Below are positions 7,936 through 37,910 of a stretch of DNA of 53,499 nt, piece after piece (the stretch's first letter is position 1; every line of letters begins with the position of its first letter). This DNA is from Candidatus Scalindua sp. (GTDB lineage Bacteria; Planctomycetota; Brocadiia; Brocadiales; Scalinduaceae), in assembly GCA_021777035.1 (NCBI GenBank), contig JAIQZR010000019.1, positions 1-53,499 of the forward strand, given 5' to 3'. A program made the translations under genes and the position numbers. A model generated the notes under the pieces. It was not told the origin of the DNA. It was given only the letters and a program-made list of their open reading frames with translations, and ran no database searches.

Positions 7936-8511
7936 CTATTTTTTTACCCATTTGTTAAGCTTTTCTAATAGCATATTTCCTTCAAATGGTTTGGTAATAT
8001 AATCATCTGCCCCTGCTCCCACTGCATTAATTATATCTTTTTTCATTTGCCTGGCAGAGCATATAATTACAGGTACGTTTATTTTCAATCTCTTCTTTAT
8101 CTCCTGGCATAAAGATATACCACTCATACCAGGTAAAGTAATATCTAATAACACTACGTCTATTTGTTTGATGCTACTTCCTGTATTACCCATTGTACGT
8201 ATCATGTTTAAGGCTTCGATACCATTTCCTGCATCGATTACGTTGTATTCGTTGCTAATTATATCTGTTAAAATTTGAACGGTATCATAATTGTCATCGA
8301 CAAGAAGAACATATGGAAGGTATCTCTCTCGAAGATTCCGGAGATTTACACTCAGATAAACATTAGTAGATTTTAGGTGTAATATTTCATTCTTTAGTTT
8401 TCTTACCAAATCGACTTCATCATCATCATTGTGATTGTCGCTATTAATAATGCGAACGTCCGCGTCTATTATAACTTCATTTTCACTATTCTGTTTATTA
8501 TGATTTTTCAT
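7936..8511 (-). CDS. Single-domain response regulator with acidic N-terminal extension
   Basis: The 191-residue protein has an acidic, low-complexity N-terminus (about 1-35, rich in N, D, E), a short helix (about 36-65) and a C-terminal receiver (about 67-190) with LLVDDNYDT, the phospho-acceptor motif VVLLDITLPGMSG and YITKPF. There is no output domain, so it probably acts by protein contact as an adaptor or sink for phosphate. Its start shares one base with the stop of cheB (TGATG), so it is the last gene of the chemotaxis operon and is translationally coupled to it. Confidence 0.88.
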   Translation of the reverse strand: MKNHNKQNSENEVIIDADVRIINSDNHNDDDEVDLVRKLKNEILHLKSTNVYLSVNLRNLRERYLPYVLLVDDNYDTVQILTDIISNEYNVIDAGNGIEALNMIRTMGNTGSSIKQIDVVLLDITLPGMSGISLCQEIKKRLKINVPVIICSARQMKKDIINAVGAGADDYITKPFEGNMLLEKLNKWVKK

Positions 8512-9596
8512 CAGCTTTGTATAAACTTGAAAATACTGGCCGGAATATTGTGCAATGGGACTATTTTGTCTGCCGCATCCAATTTAATAGCTTCTTTTGG
8601 CATACCAAACACCACACAGCTATCCTCGTCCTGTGCTATTGTTTTTGCACCGGATTCCTTCATTTTAAGCAATCCGGTGGCACCATCACTACCCATTCCA
8701 GTCATGATTACGCCGATAGCGTTAGGTCCTACATATTTCGCCGCTGAATCAAACAAAACATCCACTGCCGGTCTTTGATGGTGTATGGGTGATCCCTGGC
8801 TTGTTTGAATACTATACATTGCTCCATCTCTTTTTATGCTCATATGATAATTTCCTGGCGCTATTATTGCCTGCCCAGGTATAAGACTATCACCACTCTT
8901 ACCTTCTATTACTTTGATAGAGCACAATGAATCCAGTCTGTTTGCAAATGACTTTGTAAATATTTTCGGCATGTGTTGGACGATAGCTATTGCCGGAGAG
9001 TCAGGGGGCATCTGCATTAATACGTCCTTCACGGCTTCTGTACCTCCGGTTGATGCGCCGATGAATATAACTTTGTGAGTGCCCTTAAATAACGTATAAT
9101 TATGCCCATCTCCGTCATTTGTTCCGGAGCGGACTGTTTGAACAGAACTATTATTGTTGGAATCTCTTAAATGACTACGGCCGGCTTTTAACTTCGCACT
9201 GGATGCATTTTTTATTTTGATATATAACTCGTCAATTACATCATTCACATCACTGGAAAGGCTACCGGTAGGTTTGGCCACATAGTCTATGGCGCCTATT
9301 TCCAGGGCCTTTAATGTAGCATCGCAACCATCCTGGGTAAGAGAGCTTACCATTATCGTTGGTATAGGATAGTATGTCATTATTTTTTTCAAGAATGTGA
9401 GCCCATCCATCCTCGGCATCTCAACATCGAGAGTAAGTACATCCGGTTTTAGTTCTATAATTTTATTTCTGGCGACGAATGGATCAGGCGCGGTACCAAC
9501 TATTTCAATGTCACTGTATTTGCTCAATGCGCCGGACAGAACCTTTCTAACGACAGCAGAATCATCAACTATTAATACTTTTATTTTATTATTCAT
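8511..9596 (-). CDS. cheB: Chemotaxis protein-glutamate methylesterase/deamidase
   Basis: CheB removes methyl groups from receptor glutamates and deamidates glutamines when phosphorylated by CheA. The 361 residues comprise a receiver (1-125, D57 in LTLDVEMPRMDG) and a methylesterase domain (about 172-360). The catalytic triad is visible as S182 in IGASTGG, H208 in QHMP and D304 in GMGSDGA. GGGGA lies about seven bases before the ATG. It sits downstream of a GGDEF gene and upstream of a REC gene on the minus strand. Confidence 0.97.
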   Translation of the reverse strand: MNNKIKVLIVDDSAVVRKVLSGALSKYSDIEIVGTAPDPFVARNKIIELKPDVLTLDVEMPRMDGLTFLKKIMTYYPIPTIMVSSLTQDGCDATLKALEIGAIDYVAKPTGSLSSDVNDVIDELYIKIKNASSAKLKAGRSHLRDSNNNSSVQTVRSGTNDGDGHNYTLFKGTHKVIFIGASTGGTEAVKDVLMQMPPDSPAIAIVQHMPKIFTKSFANRLDSLCSIKVIEGKSGDSLIPGQAIIAPGNYHMSIKRDGAMYSIQTSQGSPIHHQRPAVDVLFDSAAKYVGPNAIGVIMTGMGSDGATGLLKMKESGAKTIAQDEDSCVVFGMPKEAIKLDAADKIVPLHNIPASIFKFIQS

Positions 9597-9622: not shown

Positions 9623-11146
9623 TCAGCTTGAAACCGTTTTCAGCTCAGTTTTAGGTAAATCAACTTCTGATTTAATTACATTTCTACCGTTTTGTTTCGC
9701 AAAATAGAGGGCCTTGTCTGCTCTGTCTATTAACGTTTTAGGCGTATCCGAATGGTTACAGAATGCTATTCCAATACTTGCAGATGTAGGTATGCTTTCT
9801 GAGTTAACCGTAAAGTTTATTGCTTCAATATCAGCACGTAATCTTTCACATACTTCCATAATATAATGACTATCAATCCTGTCTATTATTACAGAGAACT
9901 CCTCTCCACCATATCTTGCTACAAAATCATTTAACCTGAAAGTGTTTTTAATTGTGCTGGCAATTTTCTTCAATACATCATCACCCACTGTGTGCCCGTA
10001 TTCATCATTAATTTTCTTGAAATAATCTATATCCACCATGGCAAGAGTAAATGGACGTTTCTTTCTTGTTTTCTTTCCAAAAGCATCATTTATTTTTTTA
10101 TCAAAAGCCTTTCTATTATAAATTTGAGTTAAACCGTCTATCAGTACTTCTTCCTTAGCTGAAGCAAGCTCTCCTCGGATTATTTTGACTTTATTTGTTA
10201 ATGTATCAATGATTAAAGAGTCTTTCTCCTGCTTTCTAGTGATTGTTTTGCGAAGTGAAGCTGTTTCCAGTGTTATCTTTTTTCTGATTTCCTTTATTTC
10301 GTCCAATTCAATAGCTTCTTCAATATATGACATGCTGTCTTTTATTTGATCTGTAAAATTGGTATTGCCTTTTGTTATCGATCCAAAGTCTTCCGCCAAT
10401 TCATTTAACATCGCCATTAATTCTTTAAATTTTATATTTACTAAGCTTTTCGTTGTTTCGAAGTGTTTGGGAATTGTTTTGTTAATATTGCTTTCTACTG
10501 TTAGCAAATCTTCCAAAGTTGAAGATGTCTTAATCTTAGATACTTGCTCATTTGTAAAAATATCAAGAGAGTTTTGTTTTGGTGTAATATTGCTATCTGA
10601 ATGTTTATTGATTATTTGAAGTATTTCACAAATAATTTCCTTTGATTTGTTGAGGATCTGGTCGCTACTTAATAATTTATTCATCTCAGCACTCTCTATC
10701 GGCTCTTCTTTATCGTTTGTATTTACTCGACCATAAAAGAGAGTTTCTGATTGATCTGTTTGTCTCTTTTTTATCGCGACAAGACAAATGACTGAAAAAC
10801 CTGATATGATAACCAGGCAATTAAAAATTAAAAAAAAGAGTGAACCTTTTTTTGATGGCACTAGCGCCTCTTGTACCTCAGACTCAAGTTGCCGAAACGG
10901 AATTACAAGTCTATTCTCTGCTTCTAAACTGGCGATTATGCTCTCACTTGCACTTATGTAGTGGTTCCTCATTCGCTCTACAGCCATTCGGTTCTTATTT
11001 ATCCATATTTCATTATCAGGTGTTTTATATGTAAATAAGTTTTCGGTTTCATAAGCCTGTTTTCCCGTCGCAGAACCATAAAACAGGTAAATGGTATTAC
11101 TCAAGAGTGTAATCGTGAATATTAGACTTATTATTATGTACTTCAA
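9623..11146 (-). CDS. Membrane-anchored diguanylate cyclase (GGDEF)
   Basis: A TTG start with AAGGAA just upstream gives 507 residues. Two hydrophobic helices (about 4-24 and 103-125) bracket a roughly 75-residue periplasmic loop. A long helical, Ser/Asn-rich linker (about 140-340) with a coiled coil leads to a GGDEF domain (about 342-495). The active-site motif is GGEEF at 413-417, and an RxxD inhibitory site (R-L-N-D) lies five residues before it, so product inhibition is expected. The enzyme should make c-di-GMP from two GTP. Its place between cheR and cheB ties c-di-GMP synthesis to the chemotaxis operon. Confidence 0.92.
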   Translation of the reverse strand: MKYIIISLIFTITLLSNTIYLFYGSATGKQAYETENLFTYKTPDNEIWINKNRMAVERMRNHYISASESIIASLEAENRLVIPFRQLESEVQEALVPSKKGSLFFLIFNCLVIISGFSVICLVAIKKRQTDQSETLFYGRVNTNDKEEPIESAEMNKLLSSDQILNKSKEIICEILQIINKHSDSNITPKQNSLDIFTNEQVSKIKTSSTLEDLLTVESNINKTIPKHFETTKSLVNIKFKELMAMLNELAEDFGSITKGNTNFTDQIKDSMSYIEEAIELDEIKEIRKKITLETASLRKTITRKQEKDSLIIDTLTNKVKIIRGELASAKEEVLIDGLTQIYNRKAFDKKINDAFGKKTRKKRPFTLAMVDIDYFKKINDEYGHTVGDDVLKKIASTIKNTFRLNDFVARYGGEEFSVIIDRIDSHYIMEVCERLRADIEAINFTVNSESIPTSASIGIAFCNHSDTPKTLIDRADKALYFAKQNGRNVIKSEVDLPKTELKTVSS

Positions 11147-11239: not shown

Positions 11240-12073
11240 CTATTTCCGATAAGCAGCCGGCAATACATATTTAAATTTACTATTACTCCTGGATAGTGTT
11301 TCAGAGTGCCCGATAAAAAGATGACCATCTTTTGGCAGACAATCATAGAATTTTGAAACAAGTCGCTGTTGCGTATCAGGATCGAAATATATCATTACAT
11401 TCCTGCAGAAAATAAAATCAAAAGGATACTTAAATGGAAACTTCTCTGTCATAAGATTAAATCTCCTGAAAGTGATAACATCCTTGAGATGATCCTTTGC
11501 CTTATAACAGTTTGTCTTGTCAACAAGTACAGGGGAAAAGTGTGAAGAGATAGTTTCCGGCGGAATATCTTTCAATAACTTCTTATCGTAAACACCATTA
11601 ATCGCTTTTTGCAGGACCCTTGTGGAGATGTCGGTTGCCAGAATTTTTACATCCCATCCATTGCCTGGCTTTATATGATTAAATACGGTCATGGCCAGAG
11701 TGTATGGCTCTTCACCTGATGACGCAGCAGCACACCAAATACGTAATTTTCTGTTTTTACTCTTTTCTTTACTCGAAATAAGAGAGGGCAAGAGGTTGGT
11801 ATCTAAGAAGTCAAAGTGTTTCTTTTCTCTAAAAAAATCTGTCTTGTTTGTTGAGATGCTGTCAACGAGTTGGACTAATTCCTTTCCGGTTTTCTCGCTT
11901 TTTGTTACGTATTGATAATAATCACTAAATGTGTCTATACCCAGCGTCGAAAGACGCTTAGCTAATCTTGATTTTACCAACTCCTTTTTTGACAACGTTA
12001 AACTTATCCCACAAGTGTCGTAAATCAGACCTCTAAACATTTCAAATTCTTTGTTTGATAAGACATATTGCAT
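11240..12073 (-). CDS. cheR: Chemotaxis protein methyltransferase
   Basis: CheR transfers methyl groups from S-adenosylmethionine to receptor glutamates. The 277-residue protein has the helical N-terminal domain (about 5-75), the motif TNKTDFFRE (75-83), and the SAM-binding fold with CAAASSGEEPYTLAM (114-128) and DFIFCRNVMIYFD. Length is normal for the family. GGAG precedes the ATG. No MCP substrate is encoded in this window, so its receptors must lie elsewhere. Confidence 0.97.
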   Translation of the reverse strand: MQYVLSNKEFEMFRGLIYDTCGISLTLSKKELVKSRLAKRLSTLGIDTFSDYYQYVTKSEKTGKELVQLVDSISTNKTDFFREKKHFDFLDTNLLPSLISSKEKSKNRKLRIWCAAASSGEEPYTLAMTVFNHIKPGNGWDVKILATDISTRVLQKAINGVYDKKLLKDIPPETISSHFSPVLVDKTNCYKAKDHLKDVITFRRFNLMTEKFPFKYPFDFIFCRNVMIYFDPDTQQRLVSKFYDCLPKDGHLFIGHSETLSRSNSKFKYVLPAAYRK

Positions 12074-12237: not shown

Positions 12238-12603
12238 TTACTTGCCTATAATCACTTCATTCAGCGTTGATATTAATCTTTCTTTTTCAAACGGTTTCAC
12301 GATGTATGATGCTGCCCCTGCTTTGATTGCCTGCCATAACATCTCTTTCTGGTCTATGCCGGACATGATTACCACTTTTGCATTCTTATCAAACGCTATT
12401 ATGTCCCTGGTGGCCTGAATACCATCCACTTCCGGCATTGTTATATCCATTGTAACTACGTCAGGCATCAGTTCTTTATATTTTGCAAGTGCATCTATTC
12501 CGTTTATCGCCTCAACGGCCATCTCAAAACCACTTTGTGCCAGGATCTTTCTTATCATTAATCTTACAACACTCGCGTCATCGACTATTAATACTCTTTT
12601 CAT
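12238..12603 (-). CDS. cheY: CheY-type single-domain response regulator
   Basis: The 121-residue protein is a bare receiver with the acidic pair D8-D9, phospho-acceptor D53 (VTMDITMPEVDG), the conserved Ser/Thr after VVIM and Lys in YIVKPF. It has no output domain, as expected for a protein that binds the flagellar switch. A GGGGA sequence precedes the ATG. It is one of three short CheY-like receivers in the window (others at 18658 and 27017), so which one signals to the motor cannot be told from sequence. Confidence 0.92.
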   Translation of the reverse strand: MKRVLIVDDASVVRLMIRKILAQSGFEMAVEAINGIDALAKYKELMPDVVTMDITMPEVDGIQATRDIIAFDKNAKVVIMSGIDQKEMLWQAIKAGAASYIVKPFEKERLISTLNEVIIGK

Positions 12604-12707: not shown

Positions 12708-13322
12708 TCAGAACATACTATCTGAACTTTCTAATTTATTCAGCGACTTCTCCAACGAATTTAATTCCGGAAGCAGAAAGAAATAGCAGTTCATTTCCGC
12801 ATCGTGTATTTTGAATATTGTTTCTGTCAACAGTATCTTGTCATTGTCAACGCCATCTTCAAAAATCAGTGATGAAAATATAACACCGGCAAAATCGCAT
12901 ACAACCTGTGGCGGTGTTGGTAAAAGTGCAGAACCCAGGTCTGACGCAAATGAATTACCGATGGCACTGGCAAGAATATTTCCAATCTCCTGTATTGTAC
13001 CTTCCGTAAATTCATCAAATTCTTTAGAAGTTCCTTGTGGTTCCCCCATATAGAAGTCCTGTAGTATCAGAGCTGAATCAAGTGAGACCATGAACAATAA
13101 CTTACCGTTCAATGTACCTTCAAGCGACAACATAGCTGCCACCATTTCGCGAAAATCATTATTCATCTCCTCCGTTATCTCACTGATATCCATAAGCTCG
13201 GTCTTAACCAGTTCTATTAATGCTGCATGTTTTATTGTCTTGGAAAACGTGCGCGAAGCATTGTCCATACCCATTTTCACGACAATATCTAATATCCTCA
13301 AATGTTCTTTAGAAATCTGCAT
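12708..13322 (-). CDS. cheC: CheC-family CheY-P phosphatase, one active site degenerate
   Basis: CheC proteins dephosphorylate CheY-P through paired ExxN...P sites. In this 204-residue protein the second site is intact: E112-I-G-N115 followed by Pro 23 residues later. The first half (D-I-V-V-K-M-G-M-D-N-A-S) has lost the Glu and Asn and should be inactive, as in some FliY/CheC variants. It lies between cheD and cheY, the usual partners: CheC is stimulated by CheD. The family assignment is good; activity is inferred. Confidence 0.85.
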   Translation of the reverse strand: MQISKEHLRILDIVVKMGMDNASRTFSKTIKHAALIELVKTELMDISEITEEMNNDFREMVAAMLSLEGTLNGKLLFMVSLDSALILQDFYMGEPQGTSKEFDEFTEGTIQEIGNILASAIGNSFASDLGSALLPTPPQVVCDFAGVIFSSLIFEDGVDNDKILLTETIFKIHDAEMNCYFFLLPELNSLEKSLNKLESSDSMF

Positions 13323-14080: not shown

Positions 14081-14569
14081 TTATTCTGCCAATCCCTCTA
14101 CCATTGCCGATTCTTCAACTGACAGAACCTGCTCAATATCAAGGAGTATTATTAACTTATCTTTTGTTTTGCCTAGACCCATTATAAAGTCAGTGTCTAT
14201 TTTTTTTTCAAAATCCGGTGTCACTTCAATCTCTTTGCCACTAATGTCAACAACTTCTGAAACACTGTCAACTACGATCCCTATCAATGCGTTGTCGACT
14301 TCTACTACAATTGTACACGTTTCCTGAGTATAACCCCGCTCAGACATTGCGAACTTCAATCTCAAGTCAACTACCGGTATGACCTTTCCCCTCAGGTTAA
14401 AGACACCTTTCATATAATCCGGGGTTTGTGGTACGGATGTAATATCCATGAGGCCGATTATCTCCCTGACCTTGAGTATTTCGATTCCGTATTCTTCTGT
14501 ACCCAGGACAAATGTTAAATACTTACCTTCATAAACTGATATTTCTTTATTCTCCCCTACTGCTTCCAT
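14081..14569 (-). CDS. cheW: Chemotaxis coupling protein CheW
   Basis: CheW bridges receptors and CheA. The 162 residues are a single CheW domain (about 14-155) with the signatures Y-L-T-F-V-L-G-T-E-E-Y-G-I-E-I-L-K-V-R-E-I and N-L-R-G-K-V-I-P-V-V-D-L-R. The GAGGAG before the ATG is well placed. It follows cheA on the minus strand after a gap of about 120 bases. Confidence 0.96.
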   Translation of the reverse strand: MEAVGENKEISVYEGKYLTFVLGTEEYGIEILKVREIIGLMDITSVPQTPDYMKGVFNLRGKVIPVVDLRLKFAMSERGYTQETCTIVVEVDNALIGIVVDSVSEVVDISGKEIEVTPDFEKKIDTDFIMGLGKTKDKLIILLDIEQVLSVEESAMVEGLAE

Positions 14570-14688: not shown

Positions 14689-16746
14689 CTAATTACTCCC
14701 AATAAATGCTGAGCGGACCCCACTGACATCCAGAATCAAGCCTGCTTTTCCATCACCTAATATTGCACTTCCTGTAATTCCTTTAACATTTTTAAATCTT
14801 TCTCCCAGACTCTTGATAACAACCTGTTGCTGTCCCAGAAGCTCATCAACCAGCACACCATATCGTCCATCAGCACCCTCTACAACAACTACGATTGATT
14901 CCCAGGGGTTGATTTTGGTTGTCTCAATATCAAATAGTTTGTGTAGGCGTACCAGTGATAACAGGCTTCCTCTTATATTAACTACTTCACCCTGATTTTT
15001 GACTGTACTGATATCTTCTTTCTTTGGCCGTAGCGACTCTTCGATAGAGATCGTTGGTATAATGTATTTTGTGGTGCCCACGGTTACGACAATTCCATCT
15101 ATAATTGCGAGAGTCAGAGGCAACATGATGGTAAAAGTAGATCCCCTTCCTTCCTGTGAAGTGACTTCAACTTTACCACGAAGTTTCTCTATATTTTTCT
15201 TTACCACATCCATACCAACACCACGACCCGAAATACTGGTAACCTTTTCAGCAGTCGACAACCCCGGCGAGAATATTAAATTGTATATCTGGTTATCGGT
15301 CAGGGGTGTTTGGTTATTTACCAATCCTCTATCTATCGCTTTCTTTAATATCCTGTCCTTTTGCAACCCCTTACCGTCATCTTGAATTTCTATAATTATG
15401 TTTCCACCTCTATGGAAGGCACTTAACCTTACAGAACCTTCTTTTAACTTGCCACTGACAAGCCTGTCTTCTTCCGATTCAATACCATGGTCTATTGAGT
15501 TTCTGAGAATATGTACCAACGGATCGGCAATTTCTTCAATCACATTCTTGTCGAGTTCCGTATCTTCACCGGAGATTGTCAATTTAACCTTCTTTCCGGA
15601 ACGTGAAGAGACATCCCTTACCAGTCTTGACATTTTCTGAAAAGTCTGTTTCAAAGTAACCATTCTCATAGACATTACCTGATCCTGAATATCCTTGGTA
15701 ATCTTGGTTAATTGTGAGAGATTCTTGCTTGCTACGTTATTATTTATTGACTTCATTTCTCCACAAATCAGGGTATTGGAAATAACAAGTTCACCTACCA
15801 GGTCGAACAGATTATCAAGTTTGATGGTATCCACCTTGACAGTTCTGGACTGCAATTTTGTTTTTTGTTGAGTTTGTTGAACCTCTAAAGCGGAGTTTAC
15901 CTCTCCAACAGATACCGCTCCTTCTTCAACGAGTATTTCTCCCACCTTTCTACCTTGCTGTTTCAGTGCTTCTTCCAGTTGGGATTCTGTAATTCCGCCT
16001 TTATCCACAAGAATTTCTCCTACCTGTTTTTGTTCCTTTAAGGCACTTTCAACCTCTCCGGAACTCACTACTCCCTCTTCGACGAGTATTTCTCCCACCT
16101 TTCTGCCTTGCTGTTTCAGCGCTTCTTCCAATTGGAATTCTGTAATTTCGTCTTTATCCAGAAGTATTTCACCCAGTGATGTACCCCCTGATAATACAGG
16201 GATCTTCACATCCCCGGTGTTTTCCGCCTGTTGAACACTCTCCTGTGTTTCAGGCTTATCATTCAATATGGTTGTTATCCTGTCTATAAAAGGTTGGATG
16301 TTTATAGACTGCTCTTTCGGGGCGGAATCACAATCTGCAATTCTTCCAAGTTCTCTATCTACTCTGATAGCCAGATTATCTCTGGTTTTCCTGAGTGCGT
16401 CTATTGTCTTTAAGGATATGTCAACTATTTCCTGTGTAATAGCAACTTCTCCTTTTCTCGCCTTATCCAGAAGGGCCTCCAGTTCATGACTGAGTTTTTG
16501 CATATCGGTTAGCCCCAGAAAACCGGCACTTCCCTTTATACTATGGATGCTCCTGAAGATTGAGTTAATTACCTCATAATCACACTCACCATCCTCTATA
16601 CTGAGAATGTTGCTTTCTGAATCTTCCAGATGGTCATGTGCCTCTGATAAGAATTCCAGAAATATTTCAGAATCCTCTTTGATATCCAGAGTAAACTCGC
16701 TACTATCAGTACCTGTAGATTGTGCCTCTGTTTTAAGTACACTCAT
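14689..16746 (-). CDS. cheA: Chemotaxis histidine kinase CheA carrying four MshEN-type repeats
   Basis: The 685-residue protein has an N-terminal Hpt domain with phosphorylated H68 (S-I-H-S-I-K-G-S), a dimerisation domain (about 300-365), an HATPase domain (H-I-L-R-N-S-I-D-H-G and G-R-G-V-G-M-D-V-V), and a C-terminal CheW-like regulatory domain (about 550-680). No P2 CheY-binding domain is recognisable. In its place residues 190-290 hold four 24-residue repeats (190-213, 216-239, 241-264, 267-290) of the form x-x-G-E-I-L-hydrophobic ... L/V-x-x-x-L-x-x-Q. These match the pattern of MshEN/GspE-N modules, which can bind c-di-GMP in MshE. The core kinase is standard. The repeat insertion is unusual for CheA. 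Confidence 0.96.
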   Translation of the reverse strand: MSVLKTEAQSTGTDSSEFTLDIKEDSEIFLEFLSEAHDHLEDSESNILSIEDGECDYEVINSIFRSIHSIKGSAGFLGLTDMQKLSHELEALLDKARKGEVAITQEIVDISLKTIDALRKTRDNLAIRVDRELGRIADCDSAPKEQSINIQPFIDRITTILNDKPETQESVQQAENTGDVKIPVLSGGTSLGEILLDKDEITEFQLEEALKQQGRKVGEILVEEGVVSSGEVESALKEQKQVGEILVDKGGITESQLEEALKQQGRKVGEILVEEGAVSVGEVNSALEVQQTQQKTKLQSRTVKVDTIKLDNLFDLVGELVISNTLICGEMKSINNNVASKNLSQLTKITKDIQDQVMSMRMVTLKQTFQKMSRLVRDVSSRSGKKVKLTISGEDTELDKNVIEEIADPLVHILRNSIDHGIESEEDRLVSGKLKEGSVRLSAFHRGGNIIIEIQDDGKGLQKDRILKKAIDRGLVNNQTPLTDNQIYNLIFSPGLSTAEKVTSISGRGVGMDVVKKNIEKLRGKVEVTSQEGRGSTFTIMLPLTLAIIDGIVVTVGTTKYIIPTISIEESLRPKKEDISTVKNQGEVVNIRGSLLSLVRLHKLFDIETTKINPWESIVVVVEGADGRYGVLVDELLGQQQVVIKSLGERFKNVKGITGSAILGDGKAGLILDVSGVRSAFIGSN
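15922..16175 (-). repeat. DNA-level direct repeat inside cheA (153-bp period)
   Basis: Positions 15922-16022 and 16075-16175 are near-identical direct copies with a 153-bp (51-codon) offset. Each encodes parts of two of the 24-residue repeats. Similarity at DNA level points to a fairly recent in-frame tandem duplication, and copy number could vary between strains. Confidence 0.85.
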
Positions 16747-18099: not shown

Positions 18100-18633
18100 T
18101 CAGTCATTCTTTTTAATTACAATACCGATGTTAAAAATTTCTTCTCCAGAGGTAAATGGTGTCATCAACCACGAATTTTGACTGTTGCATGTTACACCGG
18201 GAGAGATCTTGACACTTTGTTCATCTTTACTATTGCTGGATGATGATATTGAAAGATCAGCGCCTGCTATAACTATCGGAACAGAGAGATGCATTTCACC
18301 AAATTTTTCATAAATTTTGTTCTTTAAGGTGCCGGCAATCATGTTCGCTACCTCTCCCATAGCATCCTTTGTATCCTGATCCATTTCTAAAACTTCAATA
18401 CCCAGCATGCTTGACGTAATCTTAAGCGCGATATTCCTGGAACAAAAGATGGAAACTATACCGGAATGTTCTCCGGTAAAGCTGACGAGAGATATTACAT
18501 CTGTCGATATCATATCTTCTTTTTGATAGAACGAGCCGTCAGAGTAAATCTCCATTGGTATCATTGTTGAAAATATTTCATTAGTACAACTGACAATGTC
18601 TTCTTGAATATCATCGTAAGCGGTTGTCATCAT
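18100..18633 (-). CDS. cheX: CheX-type CheY-P phosphatase
   Basis: The 177-residue protein is a single CheX-like domain. The phosphatase motif D90-A-M-G-E94-V-A-N97 is intact, with Pro 22 residues after the Asn. GAGGAG precedes an ATGATG start. It directly follows cheY on the minus strand with a gap of 24 bases, so the two are expressed together as a regulator and its eraser. CheX normally acts as a dimer. Confidence 0.88.
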   Translation of the reverse strand: MMTTAYDDIQEDIVSCTNEIFSTMIPMEIYSDGSFYQKEDMISTDVISLVSFTGEHSGIVSIFCSRNIALKITSSMLGIEVLEMDQDTKDAMGEVANMIAGTLKNKIYEKFGEMHLSVPIVIAGADLSISSSSNSKDEQSVKISPGVTCNSQNSWLMTPFTSGEEIFNIGIVIKKND

Positions 18634-18657: not shown

Positions 18658-19038
18658 TTATCCTACTAAAAGATAACTTCCGAGTGTGTCACGTAGTTGG
18701 TCTGCAGTAAACGGCTTTGTAAGATAACCGTCAGCGCCACTCTCCTTTGCTTCACTTACTTTAGAATCAGATCCCTCAGTAGTGACCATTACAACCGGTA
18801 TCCTTTTTGGCATATTTAAGGATCTTAAGGTTCTGACGAACTCGATCCCTGACATGTTTGGCATATTCCAATCGAGCAATATTAAATCTAAATCTCCACT
18901 ATCAGATATTCTCTCCAATGCTTGTTTACCGTCTCCCGCTTCTACGAATTCATCAACAATTAGACCGGTTTCCTTTATGTTTCTTTGAATAATCTTTCTC
19001 ATTACGGCAGAATCATCAACCAACAATACTTTTGACAT
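18658..19038 (-). CDS. cheY: CheY-type single-domain response regulator, first gene of che cluster
   Basis: ATG 19038 is preferred to an in-frame GTG at 19047 because AGGAAGGG sits eight bases before it. The 126 residues form a bare receiver with V-D-D, D56 (L-I-L-L-D-W-N-M-P-N-M-S-G), and Y-L-T-K-P-F. This L-L-D-W-N-M-P type of receiver is common in CheY proteins paired with CheX. A sigma-54 site about 214-230 bases upstream on the same strand probably starts the whole leftward chemotaxis transcript here. Confidence 0.92.
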   Translation of the reverse strand: MSKVLLVDDSAVMRKIIQRNIKETGLIVDEFVEAGDGKQALERISDSGDLDLILLDWNMPNMSGIEFVRTLRSLNMPKRIPVVMVTTEGSDSKVSEAKESGADGYLTKPFTADQLRDTLGSYLLVG

Positions 19039-19262
19039 ACAGATCACCCTTCCTTTCTTTTGAAATCTATAAATTAAGTTTTTCTTGCTTCCCCTTTCAA
19101 TGGATCATCTATTTCATGATCATTAAGTCTCAAATTAAGACCATTTTCAACAAACATCATTAAGGGAATATTAGAGTATCGGAACAAGTGGCATAAAATT
19201 TAGAAACAATTCCTACTAACTTAATCTTAATTTTACTGAAGTAAGATTTGAGAAGTTTACTA

Positions 19263-27016: not shown

Positions 27017-27400
27017 ATGGCAAAAACATTATTGATAGTCGATGATTCACCGATTGCACGAAAAATAACGAAAAGAATCCTTCCCAAGGAAGACGAGTTT
27101 GAAATATTCGAAGCAACAAACGGATTGGAAGGATTGGATAAGTTTAAGGAGATAAGTCCTGACATCACGTTTATGGATCTTACCATGCCCGTAATGGATG
27201 GACTGGAAGCGCTTGAAGAAATAATAAAGATTGATAGAAACGCCATAGTTATCGTATCTACGGCAGATGTACAGCCAAAATCCATTGAAAAGGTAATGTC
27301 GCTGGGAGCATTTGACGTAATAAGGAAACCGCCGAAACAAGAAAATGTTAAAAAAGTTTTATTAAAGGCTTATGAAAAAATTAGTAGTGGAGGGCAATGA
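27017..27400 (+). CDS. cheY: CheY-type single-domain response regulator
   Basis: The 127-residue bare receiver has V-D-D-S, D54 (T-F-M-D-L-T-M-P-V-M-D-G) and a Lys in V-I-R-K-P-P. It overlaps the CheC gene that follows by four bases (ATGA), so regulator and phosphatase are made together. AGGAG precedes the ATG. Confidence 0.92.
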   Translation: MAKTLLIVDDSPIARKITKRILPKEDEFEIFEATNGLEGLDKFKEISPDITFMDLTMPVMDGLEALEEIIKIDRNAIVIVSTADVQPKSIEKVMSLGAFDVIRKPPKQENVKKVLLKAYEKISSGGQ

Positions 27401-28044
27401 TGAATATGCCTCATAACGAAGATTTTTCTGAAGAAGAGTTAGATATATTACAAGAAGTCATGAATATTGCTTTCGGACAGGCCACGTCTGACCTTGCTGA
27501 GCTTATTGATATTTATGTTGTTCTTAGTGTACCGGAAATCAAATTAATCCAGGCCGAGAAACTGCCAGATTATATCAAGGAGACAATCAAAGATTATAAA
27601 GCAACAAGCATAGTTTCCCAAAACTATTGGGGCAAATTTAAAGGAAATGCGCTTTTGATTTTTCCGTTAGGGGCAGGACGTGAACTCATTACGATGCTTG
27701 ATCCCGAGTCGGGAGAACGAACACCAGGTAATCATTTTAACGTACTGGAAAAGGAAACACTTATTGAAGTAGGAAACATTCTTATCGGCGCCTGTATCGG
27801 CAAATTAACTGAATTGCTTAAAGACCATGTGACCTATTCGCCTCCTAGTGTGATTAATCATAATACTCCTGAAAGCAGTTTATTTGAAAATATTATAAAA
27901 CCAAATCATACGGCAATAACAATGAAAACCGTCTTTGGTTTTGATGGTCGTGATATTAACGGATATTTATTCCTTGTCAACGACCCGGAATCAATAAAAT
28001 GGTTAAAGATGGCGCTGCATACGTTTATGGAGGAATATGAATAG
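27397..28044 (+). CDS. cheC: CheC-family CheY-P phosphatase with two sites
   Basis: The 215-residue protein has both CheC half-sites: E20-V-M-N23 and E124-V-G-N127, each followed by Pro 23 residues later. D at -4 of the first site is kept; the second has Glu there. The protein is therefore likely to remove phosphate from CheY-P, most directly from its overlapping neighbour at 27017. GGAGG precedes ATGATG. The stop shares its last base with the GTG of the next kinase gene. Confidence 0.9.
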
Positions 28045-30074: not shown

Positions 30075-30200
30075 GTGATAAAAAAGGCGTGGTTATTGGC
30101 AAGTACATCTTGTCTTCTGAAGGAGGATACGGTCCTTGCCCGACGGCAGGTGGGGAAGGAATTTAACAATCTAAATAACATACATGGTTTTGTATTGTGA
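30075..30200 (+). CDS. Possible 41-aa leader peptide before cheV
   Basis: A GTG start lies four bases after AAAGGAGG. The frame reads M-I-K-K-A-W-L-L-A-S-T-S-C-L-L, like a short signal or lipoprotein leader, and ends three bases after the in-frame GTG at 30197 of the cheV frame. No family is known to me. The tight spacing and short length make it uncertain; it could be a leader peptide or only leader RNA. Confidence 0.3.
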   Translation: MIKKAWLLASTSCLLKEDTVLARRQVGKEFNNLNNIHGFVL

Positions 30201-30217
30201 AGGAGGTGGAAAGATTT

Positions 30218-31201
30218 ATGGATAAACAGGAAATTTTGTTAGCGAGTGGCACCAATGAATTAGAGCTTCTGACATTTTTGCTTGGTAATCAGCTATTTGG
30301 CATGAACGTTCTTAAGGTTCAGTCAATCCAGCAGTATGATGCATCATCGTTAACTAAAATACCCATGACCCATCACGCCTTGTTAGGTATGATGTTGTAT
30401 CGAGATAAAACCATTTCTTTAATTGATCTGTCTACGGCATTAGATTTAGAAAAAAAACATGAAACTAAAGAGAAACAGATAGTGATAGTAACTGAATTCA
30501 ATAGTGTCGTTAATGGCTTTCTGGTAGATAATGTGAATCGAATTAACAGACTAAATTGGAAAAATTTTATTCCTTTGGACGATACATTAGGAAGTGCCGG
30601 AAAAAGTATTACAGGGTCGATCCGAATTGATGACGCGGATATCATGGTAGTTGATTTTGAGTATATTCTTTCGGTAATCTCGCCAAACCTTGCTATTGGT
30701 GATATAAATGAAGAAACAGCAAAATTATCGAGCCAAAAATCACGGGAAGAGGTTAACATTTTCTTTGCGGAAGATTCTAAGACAATCCGTAATAATGTTA
30801 TCCGTATACTGAATAAAGCCGGTTATAAAAATGTAAGGAGTTTTGAAGACGGGCAACAAGCTTTTGATGCTTTGGTAAAACTGCGAGGCCAGACGGATAC
30901 AAATGGGTCAGATAATACACCGCTGCCACATGTACTGATTAGTGACATTGAGATGCCTCAGATGGATGGATTGTCTCTATGTAAAAAAATAAAGGAAGAT
31001 AGTATGCTTGAGCAAATAAACGTCATAATGTTTTCCAGTCTTGTTAGTAAACAGATGATTTTCAAATGCAAGAGTGTTGGCGCGGATGATTCCATTGCTA
31101 AACCTGAAATGGATAAACTGGTAACTATGCTCGATGAACTGTGCCTGAAAGGCAAAAAACCGTATACGGACAATAGGGTTCTGGAAATATCTAAATCCTG
31201 A
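30218..31201 (+). CDS. cheV: Chemotaxis protein CheV (CheW-receiver fusion)
   Basis: ATG 30218 follows AAGGAGGTG at good spacing, so I prefer it to GTG 30197. The 327 residues have a CheW domain (about 10-165, L-T-F-L-L-G-N-Q-L-F-G-M-N-V-L-K-V) and a receiver (about 180-320) with A-E-D-S and I-S-D-I-E-M-P-Q-M-D-G. CheV couples receptors to CheA and tunes this by phosphorylation. It is a second coupler beside CheW at 14081. Confidence 0.95.
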   Translation: MDKQEILLASGTNELELLTFLLGNQLFGMNVLKVQSIQQYDASSLTKIPMTHHALLGMMLYRDKTISLIDLSTALDLEKKHETKEKQIVIVTEFNSVVNGFLVDNVNRINRLNWKNFIPLDDTLGSAGKSITGSIRIDDADIMVVDFEYILSVISPNLAIGDINEETAKLSSQKSREEVNIFFAEDSKTIRNNVIRILNKAGYKNVRSFEDGQQAFDALVKLRGQTDTNGSDNTPLPHVLISDIEMPQMDGLSLCKKIKEDSMLEQINVIMFSSLVSKQMIFKCKSVGADDSIAKPEMDKLVTMLDELCLKGKKPYTDNRVLEISKS

Positions 31202-32484: not shown

Positions 32485-34056
32485 ATGAAAGTGTTAATTG
32501 CTGATGATGACAATATCTCACGACGCAGGCTTGAAAAATTTCTAGAATGTATGGATTATAATGTTCTCTCATGTAAAGACGGCCTTGAAGCCTGGGAGAT
32601 TATTCAATCTGAAAATACGCCAAACCTCCTGATCCTTGATTGGATGATGCCTGGCATGGACGGTCTTGAGATATGCCGTCAGGTCAGAAAACTGGATAAA
32701 GAACCATATATCTTTATCTTATTACTTACCTCAAAAAACGAAACGAATGATATCGTCAAGGGCATGGAAGCCGGAGCTGACGACTATATCACCAAACCAT
32801 TCAACAAAAATGAACTGAGTGTACGCTTGAGGGCCGGAAAGCGTATAGTAACGTTGAATAAAGAGCTTCTGTACATGCGGGATATGCTACAAAAAGAGGC
32901 TATTCGCGACGAACTAACCGGTCTGTATAACCGTCGTTATATGACAGAAATACTTGAAAAGGAATTTGCCGGTGCTTTAAGATACAAAACTGATTTATCA
33001 TGCCTTTTAGTTGATTTAGATTTTTTCAAAGATGTAAACGACACATTTGGACATCTCTTTGGTGATTTAGTATTGCGTGAGTTTTCTGCCTGTATAAAAC
33101 GTGTAGCAAGAAAGACGGATATCCCCATTCGTTATGGCGGTGAAGAATTTATGATGCTACTTACAAATACTAATATTGAAGGGGCAATGGCTGTGGCAGA
33201 AACCATTCGTTCTGCCTGTGAGGCGCTAAAATTCGACGATGGAGACAACTCAACAACTGCAACAGTGAGTATTGGTGTCGCGTCTGTTAAATATCATAAA
33301 TTACTTGAAAGTAAAGAACTCATAACCCTTGCGGATAAAGCCCTTTACCGAGCCAAGTCAGAAGGAAGAAACAGAGTTAAAGTTTACACCAGAGAACCTT
33401 CCGGGCAGTATGTTGATGTTAAAACCAGTGAAGACAAGGATCTCAAATGCATGAAAGAGGATCTTTCATCGGTTTTGGAAAAAACAAAGCAATCGTCTAT
33501 AGACGCTTTGACGCTTTTAGCCAACAAAACAGGAGGTAACGGACACAAGCAACACAACCGCAATACAAGGCAATACATCTGTCTCATTGGGAAAAAACTT
33601 GCTCTGCCCCCTTCTGTTATTGATACCTTTAAACGTTCGTCAATTCTGCATGACACCTTTAAAATTTTGCTGAAAAAAACGTTAAAAGCAGAAAACAGAG
33701 AGTTGAACAGAGAGGAAAAGGCTGCAATTGAAGACCATCCCTATCATCTGTCAGAACTGATCGAATTGTTCAACTTTTTTGACAATGAAAAGTCGATACT
33801 TCAGTACCATCATGAAAACTTTGATGGGACCGGTTGGCCTGATGGCCTTAAAGAAAATGAAATCCCTTTTGGTGCTCGGATATTTACCATAGCAGATACA
33901 ATTGCGGATATGTTAACTGAACAGCCATACAGGAATAAATTTCGCCCGGATGAGATCGTTCAAGAGCTTGCAAATAGAGCCGGAAAGCAGTTTGATCCAA
34001 ATCTTGTTTCTCTATTTATTGAAATCATAGAGAAACAAAATCTACTTCCTGTCTAA
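32485..34056 (+). CDS. Response regulator with GGDEF and HD-GYP-like domains (c-di-GMP turnover)
   Basis: The 523 residues have a receiver (1-120, D52), a GGDEF domain (about 135-300) with intact GGEEF (218-222) and RxxD inhibitory site (209-212), and a C-terminal HD-GYP-like domain (about 335-520). The latter has H389-D390, a His near 418, H442-H443 and F-D-G-T-G-W-P in place of the GYP signature. The usual HDxGK is HDTFK here, so hydrolysis is uncertain. Synthesis and breakdown modules in one phosphorylation-controlled protein would allow switching of c-di-GMP level. AAGGAT precedes the ATG. Confidence 0.92.
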   Translation: MKVLIADDDNISRRRLEKFLECMDYNVLSCKDGLEAWEIIQSENTPNLLILDWMMPGMDGLEICRQVRKLDKEPYIFILLLTSKNETNDIVKGMEAGADDYITKPFNKNELSVRLRAGKRIVTLNKELLYMRDMLQKEAIRDELTGLYNRRYMTEILEKEFAGALRYKTDLSCLLVDLDFFKDVNDTFGHLFGDLVLREFSACIKRVARKTDIPIRYGGEEFMMLLTNTNIEGAMAVAETIRSACEALKFDDGDNSTTATVSIGVASVKYHKLLESKELITLADKALYRAKSEGRNRVKVYTREPSGQYVDVKTSEDKDLKCMKEDLSSVLEKTKQSSIDALTLLANKTGGNGHKQHNRNTRQYICLIGKKLALPPSVIDTFKRSSILHDTFKILLKKTLKAENRELNREEKAAIEDHPYHLSELIELFNFFDNEKSILQYHHENFDGTGWPDGLKENEIPFGARIFTIADTIADMLTEQPYRNKFRPDEIVQELANRAGKQFDPNLVSLFIEIIEKQNLLPV

Positions 34057-34059
34057 CAT

Positions 34060-34971
34060 TTGGAGGAACTAACCATCATAGATACTAGTACAGTTTTCAC
34101 ATTCATGACCAAAATTGAATCTTTGCCAGCTTTACCAACTGTCGCATTTCGTATCATGCGCATTACTGCAGATCCGAAAAGCACGGCAAATGATCTTATG
34201 AAAGTTATCAACCGGGACGTATCACTTACTGCTAAGATACTTAAGATTGCCAATTCCCCATTTTATGGTTTGGCCAGGGAAATATCCTCCCTGCAACACG
34301 CAGTAACCGTGTTGGGTTTCAAAGAAATTAGAAATCTGGTTATATCTACAGTAGCATTTGATAGTTTTAAAAGTCTTAAGCAGAGTGAGAAATTTAATAT
34401 TAATAAATTCTGGAAACACTCTTTTTCTTGCGGCATAGCGGCAAAAATTATTGCGACCGACTTAAAATGTTCTGGTAATGAACTATTTGTAGCAGGTCTT
34501 ATTCACGACATTGGAAAACTGGCCATGTATATTGCCTTTCCTTTTCAATTTGAGAAATATATAGAATTGATCAATCCTCTAAAATTTAAATATACGGCAT
34601 TTGAGGTAGAAAAAGATATTTTCGGGATGACCCATGATGAAGCGGGAATGAAGCTTCTGGAAAAGTGGTTATTTCCGAAAAATTTAATCTCTGCTGTTGG
34701 TTTTCATCATCACCCCGAAAAAGCAGATCACGAGTCTCTTTCTCCGGTAATTGTACACATTGCTGATATTCTTACTCATATTTACGAAATGTCGGTTGAT
34801 GAGAAAGATGACGAATGCGATATCGTAGATGTAGAGATCTTTTACAACGATGTTATAAATCTGTTCCGATCATATGAAATAGACTGGAATGTTTCTGATC
34901 TGAGAAGGCTCCAAATTACTCTAGCGGAGAGTATGGAAAAAGAGAGTGGAGCTATGGACATATTTATATAG
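34060..34971 (+). CDS. HDOD-domain signalling protein, start codon unclear
   Basis: The protein (303 residues from TTG 34060) has an HDOD domain at about 18-215 with L-P-A-L-P-T-V-A, A-N-S-P-F-Y-G and G-L-I-H-D-I-G-K. HDOD proteins often work with c-di-GMP regulators. The start is odd: GGAGGA at 34062-34067 overlaps the TTG itself, and the only codons at the right distance after it are ATC 34075 or ATA 34078, both in frame. The first ATG (34105) has no ribosome-binding site. A non-AUG start is possible. It lies three bases after the REC-GGDEF-HD-GYP gene. Confidence 0.88.
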   Translation: MEELTIIDTSTVFTFMTKIESLPALPTVAFRIMRITADPKSTANDLMKVINRDVSLTAKILKIANSPFYGLAREISSLQHAVTVLGFKEIRNLVISTVAFDSFKSLKQSEKFNINKFWKHSFSCGIAAKIIATDLKCSGNELFVAGLIHDIGKLAMYIAFPFQFEKYIELINPLKFKYTAFEVEKDIFGMTHDEAGMKLLEKWLFPKNLISAVGFHHHPEKADHESLSPVIVHIADILTHIYEMSVDEKDDECDIVDVEIFYNDVINLFRSYEIDWNVSDLRRLQITLAESMEKESGAMDIFI

Positions 34972-36500: not shown

Positions 36501-37910
36501 ATGAACGACACAAAATCAGTGAAAAGCGAGAAAAACCGGGATGGCATTAGTCCGGTAATTTTGGTGGTAGATGATGAAGAGACTATTAGATTTTGTTTAA
36601 AAGAAGCGCTGGAAGCGGAAAGATATAAAGTCTATACAGAAGAGAGTGGAGAGAATGCATTACGACTTTTGAAGAAGTTGGTCCCTGACCTGGTCATATT
36701 GGATTTAAAGTTGCCGGGAATTAATGGCCTGGATTTATTAAATGAAATAAAGCTGCATGATCCAAACATACTCGTAATTCTTTTAACTGGGCATTCTTCC
36801 ACAGATTCGGTAGTACGCGCAATGAAGGCAGGGGCTTTTGATTATCTTGAAAAACCATTTAAGATGGAACATATCAAGATAGTAGTTGACAAGGCACTAA
36901 ATACTCAATCGCTGATGAGAGAGGTATCGAGGCTAAGGGCAAAAACAAATATTGCAGATGATGCTAATATCATTGCTGCAAGTAAAGAAATGAAAGATAT
37001 CTTCGAACATGTAAAGATAATCGCACAGAGCCCATCAAGCACAGTATTAATACAGGGAGAGAGTGGAACCGGCAAAGAGTTGATAGCTAACTATGTCCAT
37101 ATGATGAGTGCAAGAAATAGGTACAGGTTTATGGAAGTTAATTGTGCCGCTTTGACAGAGAGTTTACTTGAATCAGAGTTGTTTGGTTATGAAAAAGGTT
37201 CTTTTACCGGCGCCTCTTCCACAGGGAAGGCCGGCCTGTTTGAGGCCGCACAGAGAGGCACCATGTTCCTTGATGAGATTGGAGAGATGAGTATATCCCT
37301 ACAGGCCAAACTGCTGAGAGTGTTACAGGAAAAGAAATTTAAGAGAGTAGGTGGGATAGATGATATATTTGTGGACGTAAGGATTATTGCGTCAACAAAT
37401 CGTGATCTTGAGGAGGAAGTAAAGAAAGGAAATTTCAGAAAGGATCTTTATTATCGTTTAAAGGTATTACCAGTATATTTATGTGCTTTGAGGGAGAGAA
37501 GAGATGACATCATTCCACTTGCAAAACACAACATTCATCTTTTTAATAAAGAGTTTAACAAGAACGTTAATGAAATCCCGCCAGAGATAGAAGCTCTTTT
37601 GAAAAACTATAATTGGCCTGGAAATGTAAGAGAGCTGAAAAATGTTATTGAGAGGGCAATACTTCTTTCAAACAATTCTACACTATCTGCAGAGCACCTG
37701 TTATTGGGTACTAAAGCACGCACTAATGACGAAGGGCAGGATAGTGAAAAAGATGAAGATGAGGAAAAATGTCTTTCTACAGTTGAGAAACTGCATATAG
37801 AGAAAATCCTCAAGGAAACATCCTGGCGCATGACCAAGACATCAAAGATTCTGGGTATAAACCGTACCACTTTATACAATAAGATAAAGCAGTATGGGCT
37901 TAAGCAGTAA
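36501..37910 (+). CDS. NtrC-family sigma-54-dependent response regulator
   Basis: The 469 residues have a receiver (D68 in L-V-I-L-D-L-K-L-P-G), an AAA+ domain with Walker A G-E-S-G-T-G-K-E (about 186-193) and the sigma-54 contact loop written GSFTGA (about 233-238) instead of GAFTGA, and a C-terminal Fis-type helix-turn-helix (about 430-469, R-M-T-K-T-S-K-I-L-G-I-N-R-T-T-L). It activates sigma-54 promoters by ATP hydrolysis. It could control some of those found here. Its own kinase is not adjacent, but an orphan HisKA protein follows. GAGGAT precedes the ATG. Confidence 0.95.
   Translation: MNDTKSVKSEKNRDGISPVILVVDDEETIRFCLKEALEAERYKVYTEESGENALRLLKKLVPDLVILDLKLPGINGLDLLNEIKLHDPNILVILLTGHSSTDSVVRAMKAGAFDYLEKPFKMEHIKIVVDKALNTQSLMREVSRLRAKTNIADDANIIAASKEMKDIFEHVKIIAQSPSSTVLIQGESGTGKELIANYVHMMSARNRYRFMEVNCAALTESLLESELFGYEKGSFTGASSTGKAGLFEAAQRGTMFLDEIGEMSISLQAKLLRVLQEKKFKRVGGIDDIFVDVRIIASTNRDLEEEVKKGNFRKDLYYRLKVLPVYLCALRERRDDIIPLAKHNIHLFNKEFNKNVNEIPPEIEALLKNYNWPGNVRELKNVIERAILLSNNSTLSAEHLLLGTKARTNDEGQDSEKDEDEEKCLSTVEKLHIEKILKETSWRMTKTSKILGINRTTLYNKIKQYGLKQ

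Follow-up and report, generated by a model that had tools for sequence, protein, structure and literature searches.

The window analysed here is a stretch of 53,499 nucleotides from an anammox bacterium, Candidatus Scalindua sp. (positions 1 to 53,499 of the forward strand of contig JAIQZR010000019.1, GenBank assembly GCA_021777035.1; genome 95.2% complete, with 5.5% contamination). Our subject is cheA, the gene of a chemotaxis kinase that lies in the same window as flgM, fliF and fliG. Between its Hpt domain and its dimerisation domain (P3), this CheA has four 24-residue repeats, called r1 to r4 below. Their kinship with MshEN_N, the subdomain of the MshEN module that binds cyclic diguanosine monophosphate (c-di-GMP), is supported by a profile match, by the predicted fold and by the conservation of Gly and Gln residues. 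The gene, its domains and its repeats are placed as follows.

14689..16746, minus strand: cheA, 685 amino acids, with Hpt, two MshEN_N-type units, dimerisation (P3), HATPase and CheW domains
16390..16662, minus strand: Hpt (P1), residues 29-119, Pfam PF01627
16108..16179, minus strand: repeat r1, residues 190-213, motif-I type, with Ser1, Asp10 and Gln24
16030..16101, minus strand: repeat r2, residues 216-239, motif-II type, with Lys1 and Gln24
15955..16026, minus strand: repeat r3, residues 241-264, motif-I type, with Gln1 and Gln24
15877..15948, minus strand: repeat r4, residues 267-290, motif-II type, with Lys1 and Gln24
15667..15849, minus strand: dimerisation domain P3 (H-kinase_dim), residues 300-360, PF02895
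15112..15528, minus strand: HATPase_c (P4), residues 407-545, PF02518
14716..15096, minus strand: CheW-like (P5), residues 551-677, PF01584

The repeats had been proposed in an initial annotation of the window, and the positions that it gave proved exact on the CheA open reading frame, as did its account of spacers of 1-2 residues, of leading residues Ser, Lys, Gln and Lys, and of an Asp in place of the second Gly of the first repeat. Two residues separate the repeats within each unit (r1r2 and r3r4) and one residue separates the units, so that the spacers read 2, 1 and 2. Gly3 and Gln24 are present in 4/4 repeats, position 11 is Glu in r1 and Gly in r3, and P3 starts about 10 residues past r4. 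The CheA core is complete, since the Hpt, H-kinase_dim, HATPase_c and CheW domains each score above their Pfam cut-offs; the phospho-acceptor segment SIHSIKGSAGF, named from its sequence, lies within Hpt. The same annotation had recognised no P2 domain, and no P2 or CheY-binding family is found among the Pfam matches of the protein at E up to 1. This absence is ordinary, because one survey found over half of its CheA sequences to be without P2 (PMC10782961).

The link to MshEN comes most directly from NF053729 (the NCBIfam c-di-GMP_motif family, which is related to MshE and has a model length of 53 positions). Against residues 173-299 this profile scores 128.9 bits (E = 4.4e-38), with a curated cut-off of 38, and against the full-length protein it scores 81.8 bits (E = 2.2e-23). 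In the whole-genome scan it matches r1r2 (16030-16176) and r3r4 (15877-16023) separately, with 48.6 and 48.9 bits, and it is above cut-off in 7/7 of the related CheA linkers submitted, out of 23 named loci. Judged from its sequence, the repeat array is far above chance. In support of the same kinship, a profile built from 18 CheA linkers and run against PDB sequences matches PilF at 1.4e-27, PilB at about 2e-8 and MshE at 5.3e-8; 24 distinct sequences are matched at E up to 1, and all 14 at E <=4e-5 are MshE, PilB or PilF. The genome has three CheA-type dimerisation domains in total (profile search of contigs), and of the three only the window CheA has the module, because the contigs that bear the other two are free of NF053729 matches.

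The profile check that had been proposed with the annotation thus succeeded for NF053729 and failed for PF05157, the Pfam family called MshEN, which has no match in the window CheA, either in the search of the protein (E up to 1) or in the genome-wide scan. In two frames on contig C105, of 578 and 592 amino acids, the NF053729 matches are followed immediately on their C-terminal side by matches to PF05157, from which we take PF05157 to model the C-terminal subdomain. The window CheA is without this subdomain. PF05157 was dropped as an uninformative membership test, as its matches in the genome adjoin the motif and do not lie on it. Two other identities for the repeats were weighed. DUF4388 (PF14332) reaches a marginal 25.8 bits on the whole protein (cut-off 25) and 29.8 bits on the fragment, over profile positions 30-105 of 122, and NF053729 scores far higher on the same stretches (81.8 and 128.9 bits). 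FumaraseC_C (30.4 bits on the fragment, cut-off 32.5) and other weak Pfam matches were judged to be chance.

Structure prediction points in the same direction. The AlphaFold2 model of residues 186-296, made from 18 sequences, has seven helices, with a predicted local distance difference test score (pLDDT) of 77.6 and a predicted template modelling score (pTM) of 0.58. The pattern is compatible with two four-helix units that share a single continuous helix (44-63), which closes r2 and opens r3. When this model was compared with the PDB by Foldseek, the top 6 of 29 matches were c-di-GMP-bound PilF GSPII-B (four entries), MshE with c-di-GMP and X. citri PilB; the first five have a root mean square deviation of 1.0-1.8 Å over 53 columns at E 0.2-0.75, and the matches to MshE and PilF have Foldseek probabilities of 0.94-1.00. 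We also modelled r3r4 together with P3 (23 sequences); this model has a pLDDT of 69 and a pTM of 0.35, both low. Its best match is c-di-GMP-bound MshE (E = 0.023), followed by PilF, while T. maritima CheA P3P4 takes ranks 3-6. These models suggest that the repeat region consists of two MshEN_N-like four-helix bundles, so that the fold check raised by the annotation came out like MshEN_N rather than unlike it.

The residues that contact the ligand in MshEN are, in each motif, Arg1 (by stacking), Leu2, the backbone of Gly3 and of the next residue, Leu17, Leu21 and Gln24, according to the accessible text of Wang et al. 2016 (PMC5013675). To follow these positions we used two MAFFT alignments: A1, of 10/11 Scalindua-family CheA (G002, with a broken frame, omitted), and A3, of 23/24 linkers (the window and 23 named loci, with L038 omitted), in which L048 is without the start of motif I. 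A further alignment, A2, of 18/24 of these linkers (L038, L046, L049, L051, L052 and L054 omitted), gave the profile that was run against PDB sequences. The regular expression used to find motifs fixes Gly3 and the hydrophobic positions, and conservation there was taken from A1 and A3 instead; MAFFT misplaces position 1 of r3 in rows with a longer r2-r3 junction, and position 1 was taken from the pattern-based motif table. In L077 and L085 the pattern also picks up motif-like stretches further upstream, with spacers of 18 and 25; these look spurious and were left out of account.

Within the Scalindua family, Gly3 is found in 10/10 proteins in every repeat. Gln24 is kept in r2 (10/10), r3 (10/10) and r4 (9/10), and in only 1/10 in r1. 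Leu17 of r1 is kept in 10/10, and the hydrophobic positions 2, 6, 7, 12, 17 and 21 of this repeat stay despite the loss of Gln24. Gln24 thus seems dispensable for the fold, since r1 loses it and still keeps Gly3 and the core positions; and because r1 shows that Gln24 can go, its retention in r2, r3 and r4 points to the ligand. The pattern extends to the 23-protein alignment, where motif I (r3 in the Scalindua family) has Gln24 in 23/23 and Gly3 in the 22/22 that are readable, and motif II (r4) has Gly3 in 23/23 and Gln24 in 20/23. Across 37 distinct CheA frames, the pair next to P3 has Gln24 in 36/37 for motif I and 32/37 for motif II (hand count). Position 1 is variable in related CheA, being His, Pro, Lys, Arg, Tyr, Phe or others. 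Together with NF053729 and the predicted fold, the conserved ligand-contact Gly and Gln of related CheA support the kinship with the MshEN c-di-GMP module that the annotation had put forward.

The annotation had also called for a search for other CheA proteins with the same insertion, and these were found in the Scalindua family, in Brocadia, in Kuenenia and in other Planctomycetota. Over the linker and P3, the nearest named relatives, at 60-69%, belong to Candidatus Scalindua genomes and to one that bears the label Candidatus Brocadiaceae (L038). A window-type CheA is present at E <=1e-60 in 11/17 of the Scalindua-family genomes searched, the window's genome included, and 10/11 of these have the four repeats in a single frame. 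In the eleventh, G002 (L025/L042/L060), an in-frame stop in the cheA linker sets the Hpt frame apart from the repeat-kinase frame, with three repeats downstream, which is either an assembly error or a split gene. The other six family genomes (G006, G008, G010, G012, G013 and G014; 6/17) have no CheA match at 1e-60. Five of the six measure 2.1-2.7 Mb, CheA is present in the 2.5-2.7 Mb genomes G003, G007 and G011, and some genomes are incomplete; a link between CheA loss and genome size is only a guess.

Outside the family, CheA of Brocadia, Kuenenia and related Planctomycetota have a single repeat pair, whose second motif is Arg-led or Lys-led in Brocadia. Among 392 Planctomycetota genomes scanned, 115 have any match at <=1e-8, many of them not CheA-like in extent, and 46 have a match that spans the repeats into P3 (hand count; profile position <=57 to >=169). 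The pattern finds motifs in 25/30 of the best loci; L078, L079, L081, L083 and L084, in which the regular expression used finds none, were counted neither way. A single named-genome scan also returned L048 ('Proteobacteria bacterium'), with four repeats and 6-residue spacers, and L056 ('bacterium'), with two repeats. Because the Planctomycetota single-pair CheA, L048 and L056 have the motifs, the architecture is not restricted to the Scalindua family. In related CheA the spacer within a pair is 2-10 residues long, and the distance from the last motif to the start of P3 (TVKVD) is 6-14 residues across the 37 distinct frames.

The alternation of motif types in the Scalindua family hints at how the array arose. 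We compared nine Scalindua-family proteins (that of the window and those of eight named relatives, with L042 and G005 left aside) with 18 single-pair CheA. The mean identity to single-pair motif I/II is 50.0/41.6% for r1, 46.9/53.7% for r2, 48.1/45.5% for r3 and 39.5/46.7% for r4, r3 being the least clear, as it is assigned to type I by a small margin. Protein by protein, the expected type wins in 9/9 for r1 (I), 7/9 for r2 (II), 7/9 for r3 (I) and 9/9 for r4 (II). From these identities the array would be explained most simply by the duplication of one I+II pair, giving r1r2 and r3r4. On the motif-type comparison we set aside r2+r3 as the binding unit, a grouping whose junction, Lys-led and then mostly Pro-led, resembles single pairs with 2-residue spacers. 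The DNA identity between r1r2 and r3r4 in the window cheA is 80% over 147 nucleotides; in a comparison over 150 nucleotides it is 77%, against 51-66% in eight relatives, and this higher identity in the window suggests recent homogenisation (gene conversion) or re-duplication inside the cheA of the window lineage. Genome G264, of the same taxonomic order, has a single-pair CheA (L061/L098) in which position 24 of motif I is Lys and not Gln. Its che cluster lacks the GGDEF gene and is otherwise Scalindua-like, and it may represent a stage between CheA with one pair and CheA with two.

The genes around cheA are those of a chemotaxis cluster, with a GGDEF gene among them.

18658..19047, minus strand: CheY-like receiver, named from sequence
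18100..18633, minus strand: cheX, PF13690 (1.2e-21)
14081..14569, minus strand: cheW, PF01584
13480..14031, minus strand: presumably cheD, by sequence resemblance and not by profile; similar genes stand in neighbouring clusters
12708..13322, minus strand: CheX/CheC-like protein, with matches below both Pfam cut-offs
12238..12603, minus strand: CheY-like single receiver, named from sequence
11240..12073, minus strand: cheR, named from sequence
9623..11146, minus strand: GGDEF protein, 507 amino acids, TTG start as listed, PF00990 (5e-46)
8511..9596, minus strand: cheB, PF01339 (1.8e-63)

Downstream of cheA on its strand follow cheW, cheD, the CheX/CheC-like gene, the CheY-like gene, cheR and the GGDEF gene, and after these cheB and a gene for a receiver. 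On the upstream side are a receiver protein, cheX and a CheY-like gene. The GGDEF protein has the sequence GGEEF, with the segment RLND five residues before it, which we take to be I-site-like from its spacing, and this protein is likely to be a local source of c-di-GMP. In 8/9 readable Scalindua-family clusters (the window included), cheR and cheB flank a GGEEF cyclase gene, and GGEEF with RLND is found in 7/7 readable copies of the cyclase in these clusters; in L092 only a 394-residue GGDEF match falls inside the fetched stretch, and L095 ends before the cheR-cheB place. The genome has 14 GGDEF matches and three PilZ matches above cut-off, and because of the 14 GGDEF matches c-di-GMP is likely to be present in the organism.

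The annotation was right that GGDEF and HD genes lie nearby: besides the GGDEF gene in the gene string of cheA, the window has a REC-GGDEF-HD gene (32485-34056, plus strand), followed by an HDOD gene (34060-34971, plus strand). It also has a CheC/CheX-like gene (27397-28044) and a CheW-REC, CheV-like gene (30197-31201). About 21 kb from cheA, a gene for 179 amino acids (38062-38601, plus strand) encodes one MshEN_N pair (NF053729, 44.4 bits) and then a lone HisKA without an ATPase match; a gene for an NtrC-type regulator (36501-37910) lies close by. NF053729 likewise matches frames of 165-180 amino acids about 8-10 kb from cheA in the relatives G002, G005, G009 and G015, and a 171-amino-acid frame on a separate contig in G001. 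On another contig of the window's genome (C148, L007/L016), an open frame of 586 amino acids has overlapping c-di-GMP-motif matches; the sole listed open reading frame of at least 300 amino acids at this locus, where frames running off the ends are unlisted, is on the opposite strand and looks Sel1/TPR-like.

Published binders of this family set the frame in which the CheA units can be read. Isolated MshEN_N binds c-di-GMP at 0.35 uM (PMC5013675) and PilF 159-221 binds it at 54 nM (PMC11731258), so that the C-terminal subdomain of MshEN is dispensable for binding. In PilF GSPII-B position 1 is Lys in one motif and Leu in the other, and this unit binds at 6 nM, by which the consensus at this position was extended to Arg/Lys/Leu (PMC11731258). 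Lys in r2 and r4 fits this extended consensus, and Ser in r1 and Gln in r3 fall outside it. Arg/Lys/Leu is not a strict criterion for the family, since in PilF GSPII-C, the unit credited by its authors with the weaker of the two sites measured, motif II is Pro-led (Pro335; PMC11731258); the inter-motif spacer of this unit, counted from the CheA-linker profile alignment, is 7 residues. The two objections that the annotation had raised against its own proposal, spacers of 1-2 and not about 5 residues and no leading Arg, are therefore correct as facts and decisive in neither case: Lys or Leu can replace Arg, and in related CheA the spacers within a pair vary from 2 to 10.

The reading that we favour, with a confidence somewhat above even, is that this is a c-di-GMP-sensing CheA with tandem MshEN_N units, in which r3r4 binds c-di-GMP, r1r2 is weaker or lost, and c-di-GMP sets the output of the kinase. 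In it, two four-helix MshEN_N units are inserted between the Hpt and dimerisation domains of a flagellar-cluster CheA, and at least part of the c-di-GMP would come from the diguanylate cyclase whose gene stands between cheR and cheB. We judge r3r4 to be the likelier candidate site and r1r2 to be a weak or lost one. Binding at r3r4, beside the dimerisation hairpin, could stiffen or reorient the segment from Hpt to the hairpin and thereby change how often Hpt and the ATPase domain meet, in a direction that is not derivable from sequence; c-di-GMP might then directly set kinase output and swimming bias. A more tentative variant, which we hold to be unlikely, is a sensor with two sites of two affinities, high for r3r4 and low for r1r2 with its altered motif I. 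If it were true, the cluster-encoded cyclase and CheA would form a local loop, and c-di-GMP would gate the kinase in a graded fashion.

Several points weigh against c-di-GMP binding. The relaxed motif of Wang et al. (PMC5013675), which served there as a search pattern with later manual checks and not as a definition, is passed only by r2 and r4 when compared by eye; Ser at position 1, Asp at 10 and Glu at 11 put r1 outside it, as Gln at position 1 and Gly at 11 do for r3. The literature searched offered no example of a unit with 2 residues between its motifs for which binding has been measured. In the accessible text on PilF GSPII-A (PMC12002112), this unit does not bind c-di-GMP, a stabilised extended helix that reaches into the site helps to block it, and a construct with partly restored binding, already weak at 19 uM, lost it when Ser was returned to position 1 of motif II. 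In view of that blocking helix, the continuous r2-r3 helix of our AlphaFold2 model is a real reason for doubt, and Gln1 of r3 is another. Gln24 is not universal either, being Lys in motif I of L061 and missing from motif II of L024, L025, L053, L073 and L080, and as the aligned CheA are related, their counts are not independent. The GGDEF gene is missing between cheR and cheB in L089, a Scalindua-family cluster, and in L096, L097, L098 and L101, clusters from the same taxonomic order outside the family, no match to the GGDEF protein is found there though their CheA has the module. Finally, the Foldseek E-values of the MshE and PilF matches (0.02-0.75) are by themselves not significant; the fold evidence counts because these matches agree with the profile matches.

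Some of these points would also be explained if the repeats were a docking or spacer domain derived from MshEN_N that does not bind c-di-GMP and tethers CheY, CheX or another protein of the cluster near Hpt. The module occupies the place of P2, and PilF GSPII-A offers a precedent in which the fold is kept, binding is lost and a role as a landing pad has been proposed (PMC12002112, available sections). Ser and Gln at position 1 of r1 and r3, the absence of Gln24 from r1 in 9/10 family proteins, the failure of r1 and r3 under the relaxed motif and the short spacers all fit such a domain. However, Gln24, polar and apparently dispensable for the fold, is kept in r3 and its counterparts (23/23 in the alignment, 36/37 frames), and no replacement of P2 is required, since more than half of the surveyed CheA are without it (PMC10782961). 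We regard docking as possible but rather doubtful, though less so than the two-affinity variant. Another nucleotide or small ligand in the MshEN_N pocket would account for the unusual freedom of position 1, the guanine-stacking position of MshEN, in these CheA; but the Hoogsteen edge of guanine is read by backbone contacts (PMC11731258), the contact Gly and Gln are mostly kept, and the 14 genomic GGDEF matches make c-di-GMP likely to be present, so that we find this improbable. As for a low-complexity or coincidental helical linker unrelated to MshEN, the Lys/Glu/Gln-rich helical sequence and several weak unrelated Pfam matches might suggest one. We give it next to no credence and regard it as refuted by the NF053729 score (128.9 bits against a cut-off of 38), by the PDB profile matches at E <=4e-5, all to MshE, PilB or PilF, and by the residue conservation; the alternation of two motif types is also maintained across genomes.

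If a c-di-GMP-sensing CheA is indeed what the locus encodes, a kinase with its own c-di-GMP site would place the signal between sessile and motile life at the central node of chemotaxis, and the swimming decisions of an anammox bacterium may be tuned directly by c-di-GMP. Anammox CheA would be clean material for a test of this idea, with single pairs in Brocadia and doubled, partly altered pairs in the Scalindua family. The idea of an MshEN-CheA fusion is not new, having been listed since 2016. In the open-licence literature, as available and including PMC10519070, PMC12564702, PMC8844925, PMC10212136, PMC12943098 and PMC10782961, we found no report of a tested MshEN-CheA; the last of these, which surveyed the domain architectures of CheA in 2023, nowhere mentions MshEN, T2SS or c-di-GMP in its main text.

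Among characterised systems, MshEN_N of V. cholerae MshE (PDB 5HTL) shares with the CheA repeats the pairing of 24-residue motifs, Gly3, most hydrophobic positions, Gln24 and the predicted four-helix bundle. It differs in having two motifs and not four, a spacer of 5 residues and not 2, 1 and 2, and Arg where CheA has Ser, Lys, Gln and Lys; CheA also has a polar residue or Gly at position 11 of r1 and r3, lacks the C-terminal subdomain, and is a kinase where the host of MshEN is an ATPase. T. thermophilus PilF, with its GSPII-B and GSPII-C units, resembles CheA in that a single protein carries several GSPII units whose sites are unequal, GSPII-B having Lys at position 1 of motif I and GSPII-C a Pro-led motif behind a 7-residue spacer. 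Unlike CheA, PilF is a pilus ATPase, and its GSPII-B unit has a C-terminal subdomain. Closest in domain partnership are the fusions of Wang et al. 2016, in which MshEN was found with CheA and CheX and tandem (MshEN_N)2 forms are mentioned; whereas these fusions are only listed in the accessible part of that paper (PMC5013675), here the anatomy, residue conservation, duplication and gene neighbourhood of such a fusion in anammox bacteria are described.

Other links between c-di-GMP and chemotaxis place the sensor elsewhere, as far as the available accounts of them go. In the PilZ chemoreceptors of Azorhizobium (Cbp1) and Azospirillum the sensor is the receptor, and in P. aeruginosa c-di-GMP acts through an adaptor, MapZ, together with a chemotaxis methyltransferase. 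The sensor is a CheY-like protein in the c-di-GMP-dependent CheY-like regulators, the Cle proteins of Caulobacter, and the Pch phosphodiesterase of P. aeruginosa, tied to CheA, is a CheA-bound enzyme. The window CheA has in common with all of these that c-di-GMP and the chemotaxis machinery are coupled, and it differs from them in that the motif lies inside the kinase itself.

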